DNA from: Bacteroidota bacterium
GTDB taxonomy: Bacteria; Bacteroidota; Ignavibacteria; UBA10030; UBA8401
DNA: 64,000 nucleotides
Direction of reading: 5' to 3'
Assembly: GCA_021796215.1 (NCBI GenBank)
Contig: JAJYOK010000001.1
Location: 124,001-188,000 of the forward strand
Below, in pieces: positions 32,966 to 45,464 of the stretch. Position 1 is the first letter of the stretch, and each line of letters opens with the position of its first letter. The notes under the pieces are model-generated. The model worked only from the letters and a program-made list of their open reading frames with translations, had not been told where the DNA came from and ran no database searches. A program made the position numbers and the translations under genes.

Positions 32966-35900
32966 TTGACGACACCGACCATACGATTTTGTGCGGCTGC
33001 CTTTCTATTCTGCCTTGCTGTCTCATTTCAAACGAGCACAGCACAAGAGACATTTCCAGTCAGGTATGTTGCAAAACAATGGGGAATGGATGATGGCCTT
33101 CCTCAAAGTTCCGCCAACGCAGTCATTCAATCAAAAGATGGATACATCTGGCTTGCCACGTTCGGCGGACTTGTCCGATTTGATGGCAGATCATTTACCG
33201 TGTTCGATCGTTCCAACTCTCGGGGAATGCATTCCGACCGCATTTTAACAATCAGTGAAGACCGTGACGGTGCCCTTTGGTGCATCACGGAAGATGGTGT
33301 GTTGCGTTATCAGCACGGAGTTTTTACGTCGTTCGATGTTGCTGGCGGGCGCACCGCTGTTACTCCATTCACGGTTAGACAAGATTCCCGAGGTACAATA
33401 TGGATTATTGCTGATGGCAAGCCGTATATGTTCAGTAACAACCGGTTTGTACCGATTCCGATTCTCCGCGACTCGTCTTTGGCACGCAGAGCGTTAAATA
33501 ATTCTGGCGGAGTCTGGTTATATGATGGGAGAAAAATATTGCGGACGATTGACGATTCGGTCGTTGTTGTAATGGATTTGACGAAAATTCTCTCATATAA
33601 AATTCAGGCTTTTGTCGAATATCCCGAACATTCCGGTACATACTGGATTGCGACCGATGGTGAAGGAGTAGTGCGGCTTTCTTCGGGTGCTATCAGAAAG
33701 TACACTCAACGAGATGGACTCGCTTCTCTGTTTGCCCGGCAGTTGTTTGTAGATCATGGAAATCATCTTTGGGCTGCCTGTTTTAACGGCATCAGCAGGT
33801 TGGAAGGGGATTCATTCGTTCCCTTACGAACTGTCAATGAAGACCTTGAGAAACAATTCAATGTAATGACGCAAGACCGTGAAGGGGATTATTGGGTAGG
33901 CACACCGGCGCGCGGCTTGTACAGACTGCGCCCGGCGATCATTTCGATGATCGGACATCATGAAGGTTTGATGGAAGAAAAAATGCTCTCGCTCGTGGCA
34001 CGTAAGAATGGAACATTCTTATTTGGGACCAATTGCGGCGGTGTGTATGAATGGAAGAATGGAAAGGCAACATATTCTCCCTTGAATAAACACATGATCA
34101 ATTTGTGCGTCTGGTCGCTTTTCGAAGATTCTAAGGAACGTGTATGGGTCGGTTCACGGGTGCTCTATCGTTTTGACGATATTAACCGGAAGGGAGTATT
34201 GTTTGACTCCTCGAAAGGTTTTACCGGCTTAGATATTTTTGCAATGATGGAGGATTCGCGAGGCAGGATTTGGATCGGGTGTTTCAACGGATTGTATCTG
34301 TACAACGGACATCAATTCCGTCGGTATTCTACCGACGACGGCATGTCGGACAATGATGTCCGCGCGCTGTTTGAAGACAGATCGGGAATTTTATGGATCG
34401 GAACGACAAGAGGATTGAACAAATTTAAGAATGGAAAAATAACTCATGTGCCGCTTGTCTCTGGTCCGGGAAACTCTGTACACGCGCTGAGCGATTATAT
34501 TCGTGCGATCTATCAGGATGCCGACGGAACACTGTGGTTCGGTTCATACGGCGGCGGATTGATTCGATTGAAGGATGGAAAATTTTCCTTCATTACGAAA
34601 AAAGAAGGACTGTATGACAATATTGTTTCGGACATTGTTGAAGACGAGCAGGGGAATTTCTGGATGGGATGCAACCGCGGTATTTTCCGTGCCTCGAAAA
34701 CAGAATTGAACGCAGTGGCGGACGGTACGTTGAAAACGGTGAGCACCTATTCGTACGGCGAACCGGACGGTATGAACTCCGCGGAGACAAACGGCGGCTT
34801 CCAACCTTCGACTATTCAGGACCATAATGGACATATTTACTTTCCGACCGTGAGCGGTGTTGCTGTTGTATCCACTCGCAACGTGCAGCAAAACGATCTT
34901 CCTCCTCCGGTGAAAATCGAAAAGCTTATCTCAGAGAACACCTCTCTTCCTGTGAGCAATGCAATAACGCTTCCGTACGACAGTGCAAGCCTAGAAATTC
35001 ATTATGCCGCGCTCAGCTATGCCGATCCGGCAAAAAATCATTTCAAATATATGATGGAAGGATTAGATCAAACATGGGTGGCGGCGGGTTCACGCAGAAC
35101 GGCGTTCTATTGGACAATCCCTCCCGGTACGCGTACGTTCAGAGTGATTGCATCCAACAACGACGGCGTGTGGAATATGACTGGCGCTTCGATCCGTGTG
35201 ACGATCTTGCCTCCATTCTGGATGACATGGTGGTTCCGAACGCTGGTCGTGCTGTTGTTCGTTTCACTCGGACCATATATTTACTACGTGCGCGTTGCGG
35301 CACTCAAAAAGGAGGCGCTTGTGAAGGAGCAGTTCGCAGAACAGCTCATCAATTCACAGGAACAGGAGCGTCGGCGCATTGCCATGGAACTGCACGACGG
35401 AATAGGCCAGCAAATTTTGGTTGTGAAGAACCGGGCTGAGATGGCATTGAAGACAGTCGCCGACCCTGCACAAACTGAAGAACAACTACGCGAGATTGCG
35501 AGAAGCACGCTCAGTGCTATGAACGATGTTCATACCATTTCGCATGACTTGCGTCCGGTTCACCTCGAACAATTCGGATTGACCGACACGCTGACGAATT
35601 TGTGCGATCAGGTGCAGGAATCATCGGGCATTCAGTGGGCAACGCATGTTGACCGCATTGACGGCATCATTCCGCGCGAGAAGGAGATTCATTTCTACAG
35701 AATTGTGCAGGAAGGGATCAACAACATTATGAAACATTCGTCGGCAACTCAGGCATCAATTATGATACGGCGGTCAGATGAAGAAATGACGGCATCGTTG
35801 TGGGACAACGGCAAGGGATTTGATCCGCTCGGGGCTTCCGGTACTGCGGGAATGGGATTGGAAGGAATTCAGGAACGGACAAAGAACCTTGGCGGAACAT

Positions 35901-35968
35901 GCGAAATCAAATCACATCCCGGCGAAGGGACAACGGTGAGGGTCATTATTCCTGTTAGAAAAATCTGA
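32966..35968 (+). CDS. Two-component-propeller sensor histidine kinase (reg_prop + Y_Y_Y + HisKA_3/HATPase)
   Basis: Signal peptide, repeated GxIWIGTxxGL propeller units, Y_Y_Y region, [20 protein letters not shown]...[14 protein letters not shown]. Confidence 0.93.
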
Positions 35969-36020
35969 AAAATTATTTATCAATCAAAAGTTGATCAATA
36001 TCCGAATAAATGCTGAAATG

Positions 36021-36060
36021 TCGCACTGAGTGAGTCGCACTGAGCGGAGTCGAAGTGCGA
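36021..36060. repeat. REP-like hairpin element (5' of GIY-YIG gene)
   Basis: TCGCACT-GAGCGGAGTCGA-AGTGCGA (36035-36060) preceded by a partial copy TCGCACTGAG. Confidence 0.75.
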
Positions 36061-36079
36061 GAATTTCATTGCACGTGAT

Positions 36080-36412
36080 ATGACAAAAAGGTTTTGGGTT
36101 TATATTCTCGAATGTTCTGACCGTAGCTATTACACCGGTATGACATCGAATGTTGAAAAACGGCTGACTGAACATCAATATCATCGTTACGATGGGTATA
36201 CTTCACGCCGGTTGCCGGTGAAACTTGTATTTGCTGAAGAGTTTCAGGATGTTCAATTGGCTCAGCAATTTGAGAGGCAGATTAAAGGATGGACACGCAG
36301 AAAAAAAGAAGCGTTGATCCAAGGAAATTTTGAAGTGCTGCACGATCTTGCGCGGTGCACTAACAGCACAAGTCATATACTTCGCGGTATGGAAGAACCA
36401 AAGCGCAACTAA
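36080..36412 (+). CDS. Small single-domain GIY-YIG nuclease family protein
   Basis: FWVYILECSDRSYYTGMTSNVEKRLTEH; KLVFAEEFQDVQLAQQFERQIKGWTRRKKEALI. Confidence 0.92.
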   Translation: MTKRFWVYILECSDRSYYTGMTSNVEKRLTEHQYHRYDGYTSRRLPVKLVFAEEFQDVQLAQQFERQIKGWTRRKKEALIQGNFEVLHDLARCTNSTSHILRGMEEPKRN

Positions 36413-36424
36413 AACTCTGAGTGA

Positions 36425-36452
36425 GTTGTGGTTCGGCTCCGCTCACCACGAC
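36425..36452. repeat. REP-like hairpin element (3' of GIY-YIG gene)
   Basis: GTTGTGGT-TCGGCTCCGCTC-ACCACGAC, loop matches reverse complement of upstream element loop at 11/12. Confidence 0.75.
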
Positions 36453-36478
36453 TTATTCATCAACAGTCGCACTGAACC

Positions 36479-37129
36479 ATGGGTAAACATCAAACCATAC
36501 TGATCGCGGACGATCACGCGCTTGTGCGCAGAGGACTCCGGCAGGTTTTGGAAACACAGCCTTCCATCCGGGTGATCGAAGCGGAGAACGGAGAAGAAGC
36601 ATTGCACATAATCCGCAAAGAAAAGCCGCAGATTGCTGTGCTTGATATCGAGATGCCGAAGATGACCGGTTTCGACGTTGTCTTTCGCGTTCAGAACGAG
36701 AGATTGCCGGTCACGCTTGTCTTTCTTACCATGTTCAAAGAGGAATATGTGTTTAACAAGGCGATGGATGCGGGAGTGAAAGGCTACGTTTTGAAGGAGA
36801 ACACTATTGCTGAAATTCTTCAGTGCCTTCGCGCCGTGACCGATGGGAAATATTATCTCAGCCCGTCTATCTCAGATTTTCTGGTGAGAAGGAACGCCAG
36901 ACTTGTTACGCCCGCAAGCGACCCGACGGGAATCAATCTCCTGACGACCGCCGAGAGGAATCTGCTGAAGCTTCTTGCAGGAATGAAAACCAATCAACAA
37001 ATCGCCGATGTACTGCACATCAGCATTAAAACAGTTCACAACCACCGCAACAATATCTGCGATAAGCTCGGACTTCAGGGAGCGCATGCTCTGTTGAAGT
37101 TTGCTGTTGAACACGCCTCGCAGTTGTAA
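36479..37129 (+). CDS. NarL/LuxR-family response regulator
   Basis: Receiver with AVLDIEMPKMTG; C-terminal LTTAERNLLKLLAGMKTNQQIADVLHISIKTVHNHRNNICDKLGL HTH. Confidence 0.95.
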   Translation: MGKHQTILIADDHALVRRGLRQVLETQPSIRVIEAENGEEALHIIRKEKPQIAVLDIEMPKMTGFDVVFRVQNERLPVTLVFLTMFKEEYVFNKAMDAGVKGYVLKENTIAEILQCLRAVTDGKYYLSPSISDFLVRRNARLVTPASDPTGINLLTTAERNLLKLLAGMKTNQQIADVLHISIKTVHNHRNNICDKLGLQGAHALLKFAVEHASQL

Positions 37130-37347: not shown

Positions 37348-37722
37348 ATGAAGATCATGATTGTTGATGACCATGCTGATATGCGGCGGCTCTTGCGAAG
37401 AATTGTTTCCGGAACGCCGGAAGGAACGAATGAAATAATTGAATGCTTTGACGGCGATGAAGCGGTGGAGCAGTTCTCGTTTCATAATCCCGACGTGGTG
37501 CTGATGGATATTCAATTAAAAACGATGAATGGATTCGATGCCGCTGAGAAGATCTTGCACGATGAACCCAATGCAAAAATTTTTTTCGTGACAAGCTACG
37601 ATACGCCGGAATTCCGGGCAAGAGCGGCGGTAGTGAAAGCAAAAGGATTTATTTCGAAGAAAAATTTATCAGAACTTAATCACATTATACAAACAACATT
37701 ACCCAAAGGAGGTACACTATGA
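37348..37722 (+). CDS. Stand-alone receiver-domain response regulator
   Basis: IMIVDDHADMRRLL, DVVLMDIQLKTMNG, FFVTSYD; no output domain. Confidence 0.93.
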   Translation: MKIMIVDDHADMRRLLRRIVSGTPEGTNEIIECFDGDEAVEQFSFHNPDVVLMDIQLKTMNGFDAAEKILHDEPNAKIFFVTSYDTPEFRARAAVVKAKGFISKKNLSELNHIIQTTLPKGGTL

Positions 37723-40700
37723 TACGATTGTTGGTACGAAGCGGCATAGCCCTTGCACTGCTCGTTTTGGTAAGTGCAGTTTCGTGGGCAACGGCGCCAA
37801 CTGTCTTGTCTACATCGCCGACGCATAATGCTAACAACATTTCTGCAACAGCGAACATTACAATCAATTTCGACCAGTCGATGAGTAATTCGTCGATAAC
37901 GACAAGTACGGTCAGAGTGTTCGGATCGCTCAGAGGGCTGTACACCGGTAGTTTTTCGTACGGTAGCAACTCGGCGACGTTCAATCCTGACTCGTCATTT
38001 AAACCGGAAGAGTTAATTTTTGTAACAGTTACAACCGGAGTACAGAATGCAAGCAGTGAAGCGTTGGCAAACCCGTACGTCTTCAGTTTTACTACAAGTG
38101 CGCCTGCAGGGTATGGAAAATTTAAAGGCGCTGTGAATTATACGGCGTACAGTGGAGATCTCGGCAATATAAAGTCAATAGCGGCGGATATTGACAACGA
38201 TGGCGATCTCGATATTATTACCGTGCTTGCTCTTCAAAACCAAGTTTCTGTATTTAAAAATAATGGTGACGGAACATTTGCCTCACCGGTCAATTATACA
38301 GATTCAAATACACCGCTTGATGTTGTTGCGGCTGATGTTGATAACGACGGCGATCTTGACCTGTTAATAGCGAACAATGGAGCGCAGAGCCTTACAGCTT
38401 ACATAAATGATGGTACGGGGGCATTCAGTACGAGCCATGATTACGGTTTCTCACCGGTCCAATCGACCTCCAATTCACTTGTCGCGGCGGATATGAATGG
38501 TGATGGGTACATTGATGTTGTGGAAACCGACAGCTATTACGACTCCCTCCATGTCATGATCAACAATGGAAGCGGTGCATTTACCAATGCGTACACAAGT
38601 GCGACGCCGGCTATTCTCCATTCAGTCACCGCTGTCGACATTGACAATGACGGCGACATGGATATCGTTGCGGTTGATCCCACCGATAAAGACATACGCG
38701 TCTACACGAATGACGGAACCGGTAAATTGACAATCGGTACGACTGGCGGCGGTCTTTATACTCCCAGCGCTATGGCGATGTATGATTTCAATAACGACGG
38801 TCTTATGGATGCTGTCACGGCAGACGGGAGTGATAACAATATTAATGTTTTAATATCAAACAACCCGGTTCTCTTTTTTAACGGTAGCTCGTATAGTGCC
38901 GGAAGTTATCCGGCAAGTATTACGACGGCAGATGTCGACGCCGATAATGACGCTGATATTCTGGTAGGTAATGAAGACGATAGTACGTTCTCCCTGCTTT
39001 TAAATAACGGTTCTTTTGGTACTGCAACGAACTATCCTCTGCCAACCTCCCCGCAGGGAATTCTCTCCGCCGATGTGAACGGAGATGGTCGTATGGATGT
39101 CATCGCAAGTGGTAACGGAACAGTCTCCGTCATGTTGAATTACAACGGAGGGCACGTCAGTTCCGTATCTCCCGTAGATAACGCGATCAACGTTGATTCA
39201 ACAACCAATATCAATATCGTCTTCGATATAAATATTGATCAATCCACTTTAACATCGAGCAATGTTAGGGTAAACGGATCGGTTAGCGGGTCTATCGCCG
39301 GAAGTTTTTCATATAACTCAAGTACGTACACGGCAACTTTCAACCCCACGAATAATTTCAAGCCCGGAGAAAAAGTGACGGTCACCGTTACGACCGGCGT
39401 GAAGGATGTCAACGGCATTGTAGCGCTGCAAAGTTCATACGCTTCGATGTTTACCGTGGGAGCGGGGGGAGGTAATGCATTTGGACCTCCAACCAATTAT
39501 GCGGCAGGCACCCAGCCGCAGTCGGTTATTGCCGTCGATGTCAATGGAGACGGATATCCCGATCTTGTAACCGCAGATTACGCCGCGGATAGTATTTCAG
39601 TACTGTTGAATAACGGCAACGGTACGTACGCATCTGCAGTCCATTACTATGCTGGAAACGGACCGTCCTCAGTTGCTGCCGGCGATATTGACAACGACGG
39701 CGACATTGATCTTGTTGTAGCAACAACAAACGACAATGTCTTGTCGGTCTTTAAGAATAATGGCAGCGGGACATTTGCATCGCGAACGACAGTAAGTACC
39801 TCGACAGGTCCGAACTACGTAACATTGGCAGATATCAACAACGATGGATACCTTGATGCCGTTTATACGACCGGAAGCCAGGCGCATTCTCAAACGAATG
39901 ACGGTTCCGGCAATTTTGGGTCAGAATATAACTACACAACCGGGAATGCCGGTGTTGCCGTCGTTGATGTTAATAATGATGGCTATTCAGACGTAGTGTC
40001 GTTATATGATAATGGTGGCATAAGTACAATTTACGTTGAGAAAAATAACGGCAGCGGTGCATACTCGCCGAGCTCGTATTCGGTCGGGACTTCCCCGAAA
40101 TCATTTGTCGCAGGTGATTTTAATAACGACGGATATGTGGACATTGTTACGGCCAATAACGGCGCGGGAACAATATCTTTCCTGTCGAATAATGGTAACG
40201 GCACATTTGCATCAAAGGTAGATTTCAGCATCGGTGTGTCGTCACATCCTGTCGGGATTGCGGCTCTCGATGTTGACGGAGACGGCGATCTTGATATTGC
40301 GGTGACCGATTCGTCCACGGATTATGTTTACATCTTTACAAATAACGGCAGCGGAACATTTACTCTTTCGGCTCACTATTCAACCGGCGACGGTCCGTAC
40401 GCACTTGCCTCGGCGGATGTTGACGGCGATGGAGATCTCGATCTTATAACGGCAAATTACAACGGAAATAATATTTCCGTTTTGAAGAATTCTACTCAGG
40501 TTCAAATATCTTCACTCTCGCCCACAATCAATTCGTTGAACGTTACAAAATCATCGAACGTCACGGTAACTTTTAACCAAGCGATGAATTCCGGAACCTT
40601 GACAACAAGTACGATCGAAGTATACGGCTCGCTGCGAGGCAAGTACAGCGGAACGGTCAGCTATAACAGCGGTACGCATGCGGCAACATTCGATCCGACG

Positions 40701-43700
40701 AATGATTTTGGCCCCGGAGAAAATATCACAGTCCTTGTGAAGACCGGCGTTCAAAACGGTGACGGAGTCAGTTTGTCTACACCATACAGATGGTCATTTA
40801 CTGTTGCGGCATCCGCTCAGGGTTCGTTTGGAGCAAGACAGGACTATGCAATTAAGGGCACTCCAACTTACGCCGTTACGGCTGATATGAATGGCGACGG
40901 CCTTCCTGATGTTGTCACGGCAAATCAGAGTAACAATAATGTATCGGTGTTATTGAATGACGGTTCGGGAGGTCTCGGCACCGCTGATACTACATATGTC
41001 GGCGCAACTTCTCCGACCGCACTTGCAGTTGCAGACCTCAACGGAGACGGGTATATGGATGTCGTTACAACGAATAAGTACGGCTCAAATTCAATTTCTG
41101 TGCTCATGAATAACGGATCGGGAGGATTAAACACACCCGTCACATACCCTGTTGTGGACAATAATTTACCCGGTATCGCTATCGGAGATATCAATGGAGA
41201 CGGTTATAACGATATAATCGTCGTAAATTACACCAACAATCAGGATGCCATTTTCCTGAATAACGGCGACGGGACATTTACTGCACAAACGCCGGTGACT
41301 ACCGGTACTGGTCCATGGGGCGTCACGCTGAGCGATGTGGACGGTGACGGCGATCTGGATATTATTTCGGCAGACGATGACGGCCAGTCCATTTCCGTTT
41401 TAAAGAACAATGGCGACGGAACCTTTGCTGCGAAGACTACCTATTCAATAGGTAGTGTCTATCCCAATACCGTTGTGGCAGGAGATGTGGACGGCGATGG
41501 CGACAATGATCTGGTAACGTCAAATGCTAATAATGGAAATGTAACCGTTTTGCTGAACGATGGAAGCGGAACGTTTTCAGTGAGCAGTAACTATTCTACA
41601 AATAATCCCTCTAGCGCGATACTCATGGATGCAGATGGTGACGGAAACCTGGATATTGTAACTTCAGAAACATCATTAAATAAAGTGGCAGTTCTGAAGA
41701 ACAACGGGAACGGTACATTTCAATCCGCAACGTACTACAGTGTGGGATCATATCCACAATCGGTTTCCGGATGCGATATTGACGGGGACGGAGACCTTGA
41801 TATTGTTGCAGCTAACAATGGAGACACCACTATATCGGTCTTGAAGAATGTCGAATTGGTCAATGTAAGCTCGGTCTCTCCGTCCGCGAACGCACTAAAC
41901 ATAGCCGCATCGTCAAACATTACGGCAACGTTCAGTACCTCCATGAACTCGGCAACGTTGGTTGACTCCACAGTGATCGTGAAGGGTTCACTTTCCGGCA
42001 AGATCAGCGGCGCTATCTCGTACGACGGTCCTTCGAAAACGATGACCTTTAATCCCACGAGTGATTTTCTTCCGGGTGAGGAGGTTTCGATCACATTAAC
42101 ATCGGATATCAAGGATACCAGCGGAGTAGGTTTGCTTCAATCATTAACCTATTCGTTCATGGTCCATGCATCCGGCTCGGGAAATTTTGCCTATCAGGAT
42201 ACAATGGTTGATAATGGGTACACCCGGACACTCACGCCAGGTGACATTGACGGGGATGGAAAGGTTGATCTTATTGGAGCAGATGATTACATCAACCGCA
42301 TGAAATTCTTCAGAAACAATTCGGGCACGTTCGATTCACTTTATACAATAACGGGCCTGGCAGGTCCTGATATTTTGAAGGCGGCAGATCTGGATAACGA
42401 CGGAGATCTCGATTTCATTGCGGCGTCTACTTCAGCAAATACGATGACTCCGATCATCAACAACGGAGACGGCACATTCACTGCAAAAAGTCCGGTGACC
42501 ATAGGCTATAATAATGTAAATGTCGTTCTGAAGGACATAGATAACGATGGAAAGCCGGATGTAGTGGTAAATGGCGGCGGCAGCCAGCAGGTTTATATCT
42601 ATTATGATGATGCCGGGAATTATTCCTACTCAGGTTATTCATATTTTACCGATGCATATGGTATCAAGGATTTTGCTGCGGCAGATGTGGATAATGATGG
42701 CTATAACGATATTATTACTGCCCATAATGAAGGTAGTGGTGCAGATTATGTTGACATTATCCGTAACGTAGGCGACAGAACGTTTGCCTCACCGGTTAAA
42801 TATTCTATCGGCAATGATATTTCTACTTTGGCAGCAGCCGACGTGAATGGCGATGGATACATTGATGTGATTGTGGGTAACAGTGACTCGTTGACCTTTT
42901 CCGTCATGTTGAATAACGGAGATGGCACATTCGGCACACCCGTTGACTATGAAGTAGGATATAGTGTGGGGCAAATTGTCCCCGGAGACATTAATGGCGA
43001 TGGCAAAATAGACCTCGTTATACATGCATACGATAACGACGCAGGTGTGGACAAAGTCCTTATCGCCTATAATGACGGGAATGGTAAATTCTATAATCAG
43101 CAAGATGTCGATATCAAAGTATATGCTTACAATTATTATAGTTTTAATAATATCGCCCTCATGGATTTTGACAATGACGGCGCGCTCGACTTTGTTGTTC
43201 AGATGACCGATGGTACGAACCAGTTATTTGGGTTCTACAAAAACAGCACCGTGACCGCGACAGTGCCGACAACGGCGGCAAGCAGCATCAGTACGAGCGA
43301 CGATTACGGGACACAGCTCAAAATCCACTGGACGAACGGTGACGGTTCCCGTCGGCTGGTATTAGTGAAACAAGGAAGTGCAGTGGACGCCAAACCTACG
43401 AACAACGGCAACTATTCACCCAATCCGCAATTCGGATCAGGTTCACAAATAGGGTCCGGAAATTATGCTGTGTATGGAGGTGCCGGTCCGTTCGTAACAG
43501 TATCCGGATTATCGGTCAATACGAAGTATTATGTATCTGTCTTTGAAATGAACGGCACTCCGGGAGGAGAAGTATTTGACACAACCTCGGCACCGACATC
43601 ATTCTTCACGACAAATTCGCACGAGGGCTACGCGTTCGATACAACAGCCGGGTATGCAATGGAGTTTGACAGTTCAAGCAGTCCGTCAGTGGATCTGCCT

Positions 43701-45464
43701 GTCAGCAGTGTACCGAACGACATGACGGTTCAATTGTGGGTGCAGACAACCGATAGTTCAAGGAGTGCGGTCTTCTTTGCAAGGGGGCAAGGTGGCCTCG
43801 GACCTTTTGTTAAAGGAGGCGGGCCGCTTCATCCGGTGATGAAGAAATCGGGAGGAAACAAAAAACCTGCAACTATTCATGCGGCGAAGAAAAAATCGCA
43901 GCAGAGTAAAATATATCCTCACAAATCGTCGAGTAAGCCCGGTATTAATACGATCGCCTCGAACGACTTCAATTATCCGATTCAAACCGGGATTGACAAC
44001 GGCCATATTTATCTCAGTGTCTATGATGATGCTAATAGTGGCAATTTTGTTACGATAACCGACACGGCAACGGTACACGATAATCAATGGTACAACGTGG
44101 CGTTTACGATGGCCTATAACAGTATCGATCAATCGTCTGAGATACATTTGTATGTCAACGGGGTTGAGAGTGCGGATTCAGCAAACATAGGCTATTTTAC
44201 TGATTATGGTTCTGAATTTTTGCTCGGCTATGACGGCGTAACCTATTTTGACGGTAAGATTGACGAAGTACAGATCAGAAATACCGTTCATTCCCTCAGT
44301 GATATCCGCCAGCAGATCCATCGGACGATCAGCGGTTTCCCCACGGATATTGCCGGGTACTGGCAGTTCAACGAAGGAACCGGTACATCTTCAACTGATC
44401 TGATGGGCGGCAATACTGCAACCTTGAATTCTGTCCTCTGGGACAGCTCAACCGTTCCGATCGGGTATGGAACCTCGTCAACCACAACTTCATTCCAAAC
44501 GGGCACTGCGGCTGTCGGCAACGCATCGTTAACTATGACAGATGGGTTCGATAATCCGGTTGACGTGGTCTGCACTCAGGTTGAAGCGCCGCCGAATCAA
44601 TATCCCGTCGGGTATTCCGCTTTCGTCGGCGATAAGTACTTTGTCATTGATATCTACGGCGATCCGGGAGCGTTTACGGCGAGCCTTACGCTCAATTTCG
44701 GGGCGAACACGCTCGATCCCAATGTTGATACGCATCCGGAAGCGCTGTTACTCTACAAGAGGGAATCGTCATCAACCGGAGGGTGGACAACATTCGGCGG
44801 TGCATCATCGGCGAATTCTGCAACGGGAGACGTAACCTGGACGGGTATTACATCATTCAGCGAGTGGGGAGTTGGCCAGAACAACCAAGCTCTGCCGGTG
44901 GAGATGGCGTCGTTTAATGCGACAGCGATTCATGGGACCGTCAATCTGCAATGGAGTACTGCTACCGAACTGAATCTTGCCAGATTTGAGGTCGAGCGTT
45001 ACATGGTAGGAGCGCAGGGATCGAAGAAGGTATGGACAACCATCGGTACCATCAACGGTCACGGAACAACGAACAAGCCGCAAACGTATTCATTCATGGA
45101 CAAAGCGGCAAAAGGAACGGTTCAGTACCGGCTTAAAAAAGTCAATACTGATGGTACATTCCAGTATACGCAGACAATAGAAGTGAAAGTCGTCGTGCCT
45201 CTGGTGTATTCGCTCAGCCAGAATTATCCGAACCCGTTCAATCCGACGACCACGATTCTGTATGATCTGCCGGAGCAGTCTCACGTGTCGCTGGATGTAT
45301 ATGACATTCTCGGCAGAAAAGTGAAGACGCTGGTGAACGAAGTAAAGCCGGCAGGAGAATACAGTGTCATGTTTGATGGAAGCAGTATAGCGAGCGGGGT
45401 GTATTTCTACAGGATTCAAGCTAATAATTACACCTCGGTCAAAAAACTTTTATTAGAGAAGTAA
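37719..45464 (+). CDS. Giant (2581 aa) secreted surface protein: four Big_5-like Ig + FG-GAP/VCBS propeller modules, LamG-like domain, C-terminal T9SS type A sorting domain
   Basis: Signal peptide; dozens of DxNxDGxxD repeats; [40 protein letters not shown]...GVYFYRI C-terminus. Confidence 0.92.

Follow-up and report, generated by a model that had tools for sequence, protein, structure and literature searches.

A small GIY-YIG nuclease gene of Bacteroidota and its loop-conserved flanking hairpins as a candidate two-part module

What ties a small nuclease gene to the hairpins that bracket it? This question is raised by a locus in the 64,000-nucleotide stretch of a Bacteroidota genome (assembly GCA_021796215.1, contig JAJYOK010000001.1, positions 124,001 to 188,000) that we analysed and refer to as the window. 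Between a histidine kinase gene on the left (32966..35968, + strand), which dates the insertion, and a response regulator gene on the right (36479..37129, + strand) lies an inserted block (35969..36478) that holds a gene (36080..36412, + strand) for a GIY-YIG nuclease of 110 aa. Its product matches PF01541 in a profile search (E=1.6e-17), and the usual catalytic residues are present, with Y8, Y18, G20, R28, H32 and E65 invariant across 28 homologues. The protein is of the type that we call tail-type, its C-terminal region reading ...LARCTNSTSH.... A GIY-YIG homing endonuclease of the group I intron family was considered and rejected (TIGR01453 scores 11.9 bits, below the cut-off of 56), and the location is intergenic. 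The two-component genes also adjoin a gene (window 37719-45464) whose repeat-rich product, 2581 aa long, is of surface type and ends in a sorting-like domain.

An earlier note on this DNA had described oppositely oriented hairpins around the gene that keep their loop and differ in their stems, and every sequence that it gave was found as described. The upstream hairpin (36035..36060, - strand), recognised by its sequence and by the like form found beside homologues, reads TCGCACT-TCGACTCCGCTC-AGTGCGA; its stem arms lie at 36035-36041 and 36054-36060, its loop at 36042-36053 and its REP-strand tag, AGTC, at 36033-36036. The downstream hairpin (36425..36452, + strand), recognised by its sequence, reads GTTGTGGT-TCGGCTCCGCTC-ACCACGAC; its stem arms at 36425-36432 and 36445-36452 reach about 12 pairs with G-T allowed, its loop lies at 36433-36444 and its outward tag, GACT, at 36450-36453. 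Both belong to the loop class termed A below, and the whole unit, AGTC-hairpin-gene-hairpin-GACT, spans 36033..36453. Shorter pieces of related sequence accompany it: CTGAGTGAGT is present at 36026 and 36417, the half element GTCGCACTGAG (36020..36030, + strand), consisting of a tag and a stem arm, is probably a hairpin remnant, and the half element AGTCGCACTGA (36465..36475, + strand) has a second copy at 36033. Folded in isolation, the window hairpins give modest z-scores (-1.4 to -2.0). In the 3.37-Mb genome there are three exact copies of the loop, two beside the GIY-YIG gene and one, at C37:219034, without a stem, and when one mismatch is allowed this genome holds 106 matches compared to 85 for the reversed pattern, with no clear excess. 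A dispersed genome-wide repeat family is ruled out here by the three exact loops; the window hairpins are not chance, and in their own genome they bracket a gene. The case for selection on these hairpins comes instead from covariation in relatives and from recurrence beside homologues.

Homologues were sought in 297 genomes of the phylum. Their flanks carry many hairpins in which the loop is the same and the stems differ, as many as 26 of them at a single gene (L061), and whole-genome counts of the loop TCGACTNCGCTC reach 194 per genome, against only a few for the reversed control. On the REP strand an element runs 5'-TGTCA-stem-GAGCGNAGTCGA-stem', with a variant tag, AGTC/GACT, in the window's genus, and copies are often inverted dimers with their tags outward (e.g. 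TGTCATGCTGAGCGGAGTCGAAGCATC...GATCCTTCGACTGCGCTCAGGATGACA). In a set of 45 elements for which the loop was the sole criterion of choice, and most of which come from separate loci, 87.6% of cells were paired, compared to 56% in shuffled sets and 23-38% in slid-partner controls, and 80 cells had changed on both sides compared to 25 in shuffles (0/500 shuffles). Pairing exceeds expectation mainly in the first five stem pairs, the 12-nt loop is almost invariant apart from its central base, and TGACA is conserved on the 3' side (T66 G74 A77 C74 A67 of 86). This covariation backs the earlier proposal that the stem arms change together while the loop is kept, under selection on hairpin form. Orientation is likewise regular: the nearest upstream element lies on the minus strand at 68 loci and on the plus strand at 12, and the nearest downstream element on the plus strand at 56 and on the minus strand at 15, so that the tags face outward and the gene sits inside a large dimer. 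At L052, L055, L215, L217, L220, L274 and L279 the coding sequence runs on through the downstream hairpin and the proteins end in peptides such as GFDSAQPD, which may contaminate protein databases.

Hairpins that lie 20-50 bp from the ends of a small gene might be ordinary bidirectional terminators or mRNA-stability structures, and REPs often act in transcripts (PMC3733652). Yet an explanation of this kind leaves little room for a 12-nt loop kept across the phylum on a stem of free sequence, for up to 26 copies around one gene or for a loop class that matches the type of the neighbouring protein, and the window hairpins drew neither a terminator call nor an Rfam match, on which grounds both identities were rejected. 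We regard it as highly improbable.

The match between loop and protein was scored at 108 homologue loci, within 400 bp of the gene, for two loop classes, A (TCGACTNCGCTC) and B (TCGACANGCTC, 11 nt), with the homologues split by the presence of a C-terminal C-x-N tail into 82 tail-type and 26 tail-less proteins. Class A was found at 80/82 tail-type loci and class B at 0/82, whereas tail-less loci had class B in 12/26 cases and class A in 1/26 (p=3e-14 over the 108 loci); half of the tail-less homologues carry neither class. The two tail-type exceptions have a 13-nt variant loop, TCGACTATCGCTC (L249), and a class A loop on a stem of only 3 bp (L244). Both protein types occur in each of two genomes, G154 and G226, where the genes stand next to hairpins of the matching loop class; the exception is L051 in G226, the sole tail-less gene with class A. 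In G057, G084 and G228, tail-type genes have class A and a tail-less paralogue has neither class; one tail-type gene of G057 has two class B elements besides seven of class A. A core-domain tree of 83 columns is poorly resolved; in its best form it implies 13 tail changes, and its well-supported branches contain only two independent tail contrasts, both of which agree with the loop class. The specific tie between these repeats and this GIY-YIG subfamily that had been proposed for the window is upheld by the class matching over the 108 loci. Further hairpins of their own type stand beside the tail-less homologues L277, L265 and L270, at L270 (flanks of gene 1003-1323) as ATCCC-GAGCGAAGCGA-GGGAT on both sides of the gene, which suggests that there are more loop classes.

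On these sequence comparisons, we consider it probable that the gene and its hairpins form a two-part module, in which a small GIY-YIG endonuclease is paired with its own recognition hairpins, a kind of REP-like repeat. As part of that explanation, the choice of loop would go with the C-terminal half of the protein, a C-x-N tail with class A and the lack of one with class B or another class. In an AlphaFold model the core of the protein is confident and the tail disordered. The nearest solved folds are those of UPF0213 proteins and of Slx1, a nuclease for branched DNA, and the UPF0213/YhbQ-type structures 1zg2 and 1ywl in the PDB are the closest by both sequence and fold. We know of no repeat association for UPF0213/YhbQ-type small GIY-YIG proteins such as these, from which the C-x-N tail sets the class A subfamily apart. 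The modelled likeness to Slx1 and UPF0213 is compatible with recognition of folded DNA.

Beyond individual loci, the earlier note had anticipated a genome-wide association of repeats and gene. Across genomes this stands, as at least ten loop copies are present in 18/24 genomes with a tail-type gene compared to 30/273 others (p=2e-11); it does not extend to the window's own genome, which has two hairpins only. Abundant repeats in genomes with no such gene, an observation that the note had said would count against its idea, were encountered in part: G002 (197 loop copies), G192, G280 and G278 have no small GIY-YIG gene, and the association is still beyond chance. Pairing of nuclease and repeat is not obligatory, given the 30 other genomes with at least ten copies, G002 included, and orphan repeats are known for REPs (PMC3733652). 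These repeat-rich genomes, together with the resemblance of the REP-like dimers to REPINs, would suit hairpins that are mobilised by another enzyme, an IS200/RAYT-type tyrosine transposase, with the GIY-YIG gene as a passenger. However, none of 19 Y1_Tnp (IS200-type transposase) loci in the same genomes has a class A or B hairpin, a search for a Y1 transposase in G002, G278 and G192 gave no match even where 197 copies are present, and loop class follows GIY-YIG subtype, which together make the passenger explanation unlikely. A RAYT or other Y1 transposase was ruled out as partner on the 0/19 loci, and other GIY-YIG proteins, UvrC-length ones included, on 20 loci in the same genomes, none with a class A or B hairpin. 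Four loci with proteobacterial plasmid homologues had no CGTC-type hairpins beside the gene, and generality across phyla is not borne out there. Small GIY-YIG genes also form tandem arrays of two or three, in G132 (C1:1384658-1385513 and 1733878-1734724, at a spacing of 317-323 bp) and in G297 (C87 and C128).

The unit in the window behaves as acquired, judging by empty junctions in relatives and by the low dS of the GIY-YIG gene. In G297, a genome of the same genus whose kinase is 94% identical, the kinase stop overlaps the regulator start and the junction is empty, and in three outgroups (G308, G305 and G312) the kinase and regulator genes overlap or nearly touch, with no unit. Because the junction is empty in all of these, the empty state is most likely ancestral and the unit gained. 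A second genome of the genus, G200, carries the unit at the same junction along with about ten more hairpins, and retains the half element AGTCGCACTGA at 36465, immediately 5' of the regulator start codon. Identity between the window genome (G000) and G200 is 95.7% over 36033-36452 compared to 74-84% outside, the limits of high identity coincide with the outer ends of the hairpins, and the GIY-YIG gene has a dS of 0.13 (dN/dS about 0.15), compared to 0.9-1.8 for the histidine kinase, 0.93 for the response regulator and 2.2 for RR2; the two copies of the unit share a recent origin.

The best explanation of this low dS would be that the unit was exchanged horizontally or replaced; the value could reflect allele replacement instead of transposition. 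Exchange and replacement are both plausible, because G000 and G200 also have in common an upstream spacer of about 50 bp that G297 lacks. No clean target-site duplication was recognisable at the kinase-regulator junction. Recent transposition copies inside one genome were rejected for G240, G209 and G057, in which the paralogues have diverged; G154 has a tandem duplication. Relative to G297, dS is 0.46 for the regulator (36479-37129), 0.18-0.26 for the kinase and 0.23 for the next regulator, as if a recombination tract had ended in the first of these.

Among known systems the closest appears to be Ssn with its repeat in Neisseria. Ssn is reportedly a family of GIY-YIG site-specific single-stranded nucleases with an NTS repeat in Neisseria (said to have appeared in Nature Communications in 2025), and the Neisseria enzyme is said to cut ssDNA at a repeat of hundreds of copies and to affect transformation. 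Here, too, the protein is a small single-domain GIY-YIG protein and the cognate repeats are homologue-specific, lie at the gene and in many relatives are also dispersed in the genome. Unlike in Ssn, the element is a hairpin with a long loop and a free stem, each of its two loop classes goes with a protein subtype, the unit is seen as an insertion and the window's own genome has two copies only. The likeness in cognate-pair architecture lends credit to a reading in which the nuclease controls DNA traffic and has no mobility, cutting ssDNA, either incoming or of the lagging strand, at the repeats so as to tune uptake or recombination, with the repeats spread by recombination or selection instead of by the enzyme; orphan repeats would then need no enzyme. 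Recognition would proceed as in the two-part module, mobility being the only difference. By itself, however, traffic control leaves the inverted, tags-outward flanking unexplained, as well as the gain at a gene junction and the abrupt change in identity at the outer ends of the hairpins, and we give it a substantial but somewhat less than even chance.

A second comparison is with the superfamily of CGTC/TGTC-tagged REPs, which includes dRS3 of Neisseria and for which a partner enzyme was reported to be lacking in 2013 (PMC3733652). Shared with these REPs are the one-sided tag, which in most elements reads TGTCA on the REP strand and TGACA on its complement, and a hairpin that often occurs as inverted dimers. 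The differences are a loop of 11-12 nt here compared to 4-5, a stem of often 4-6 bp compared to 8-9, and no CCA-type tail shown here. In architecture the hairpin-nuclease unit is analogous to REP/RAYT systems (REPtrons and REPINs), with a nuclease gene between inverted palindromes, gene-less monomers and dimers dispersed in relatives though not in the window's own genome, and orphan repeats in some genomes. It is not a member, because the enzyme is GIY-YIG and not an HUH Y1 transposase, with another fold and presumably another chemistry, and the tag is TGTC/AGTC and not GTAG. A REPtron-like mobile element might nonetheless use a GIY-YIG nuclease in place of the HUH transposase, one that would recognise folded long-loop hairpins at both gene ends, move or copy the unit and gene-less dimers, and switch its target loop through the C-terminal tail. 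We hold this more specific version to be possible but rather doubtful.

Returning to the two-part module, the enzyme's most likely target would be the element in its folded, single-stranded state. The enzyme would read the 12-nt loop (GAGCGNAGTCGA on the REP strand) as presented by a stem of ~5 bp whose own sequence is free, and would nick at or near the hairpin. An inverted pair with tags outward would allow gene and hairpins to be gained as a unit and passed from one lineage to another, after which gene-less hairpins, single or paired, may have spread in some genomes. That the enzyme binds and cleaves the single strand in its folded form, and that the hairpins need it in order to spread, we infer from these sequence patterns. 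As for the earlier suggestion that a GIY-YIG nuclease mobilises a REP-type element, the link to the subfamily and the acquired nature of the unit speak in its favour, and the nuclease may plausibly mobilise it; a role as a site-specific ssDNA nuclease is at least as likely as a mobilising one.

Hairpins of the general CGTC-tagged REP design therefore adjoin one GIY-YIG subfamily throughout the phylum, with a loop class that matches protein type. As the pairing recurs across Bacteroidota, loop type tracks enzyme type and the unit is inserted between older genes, the whole has the look of a mobile enzyme-plus-target module. The matching makes a hairpin-recognition code directly testable: there are two loop classes and a single short tail to compare, natural pairs are numerous, and some genomes hold both protein types. 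Should the loop direct these enzymes in cutting folded ssDNA, they would be ready-made site-specific ssDNA nucleases with distinct targets, and if the REPtron-like reading is true, they would be the partner enzyme that CGTC/TGTC-tagged REPs have lacked.
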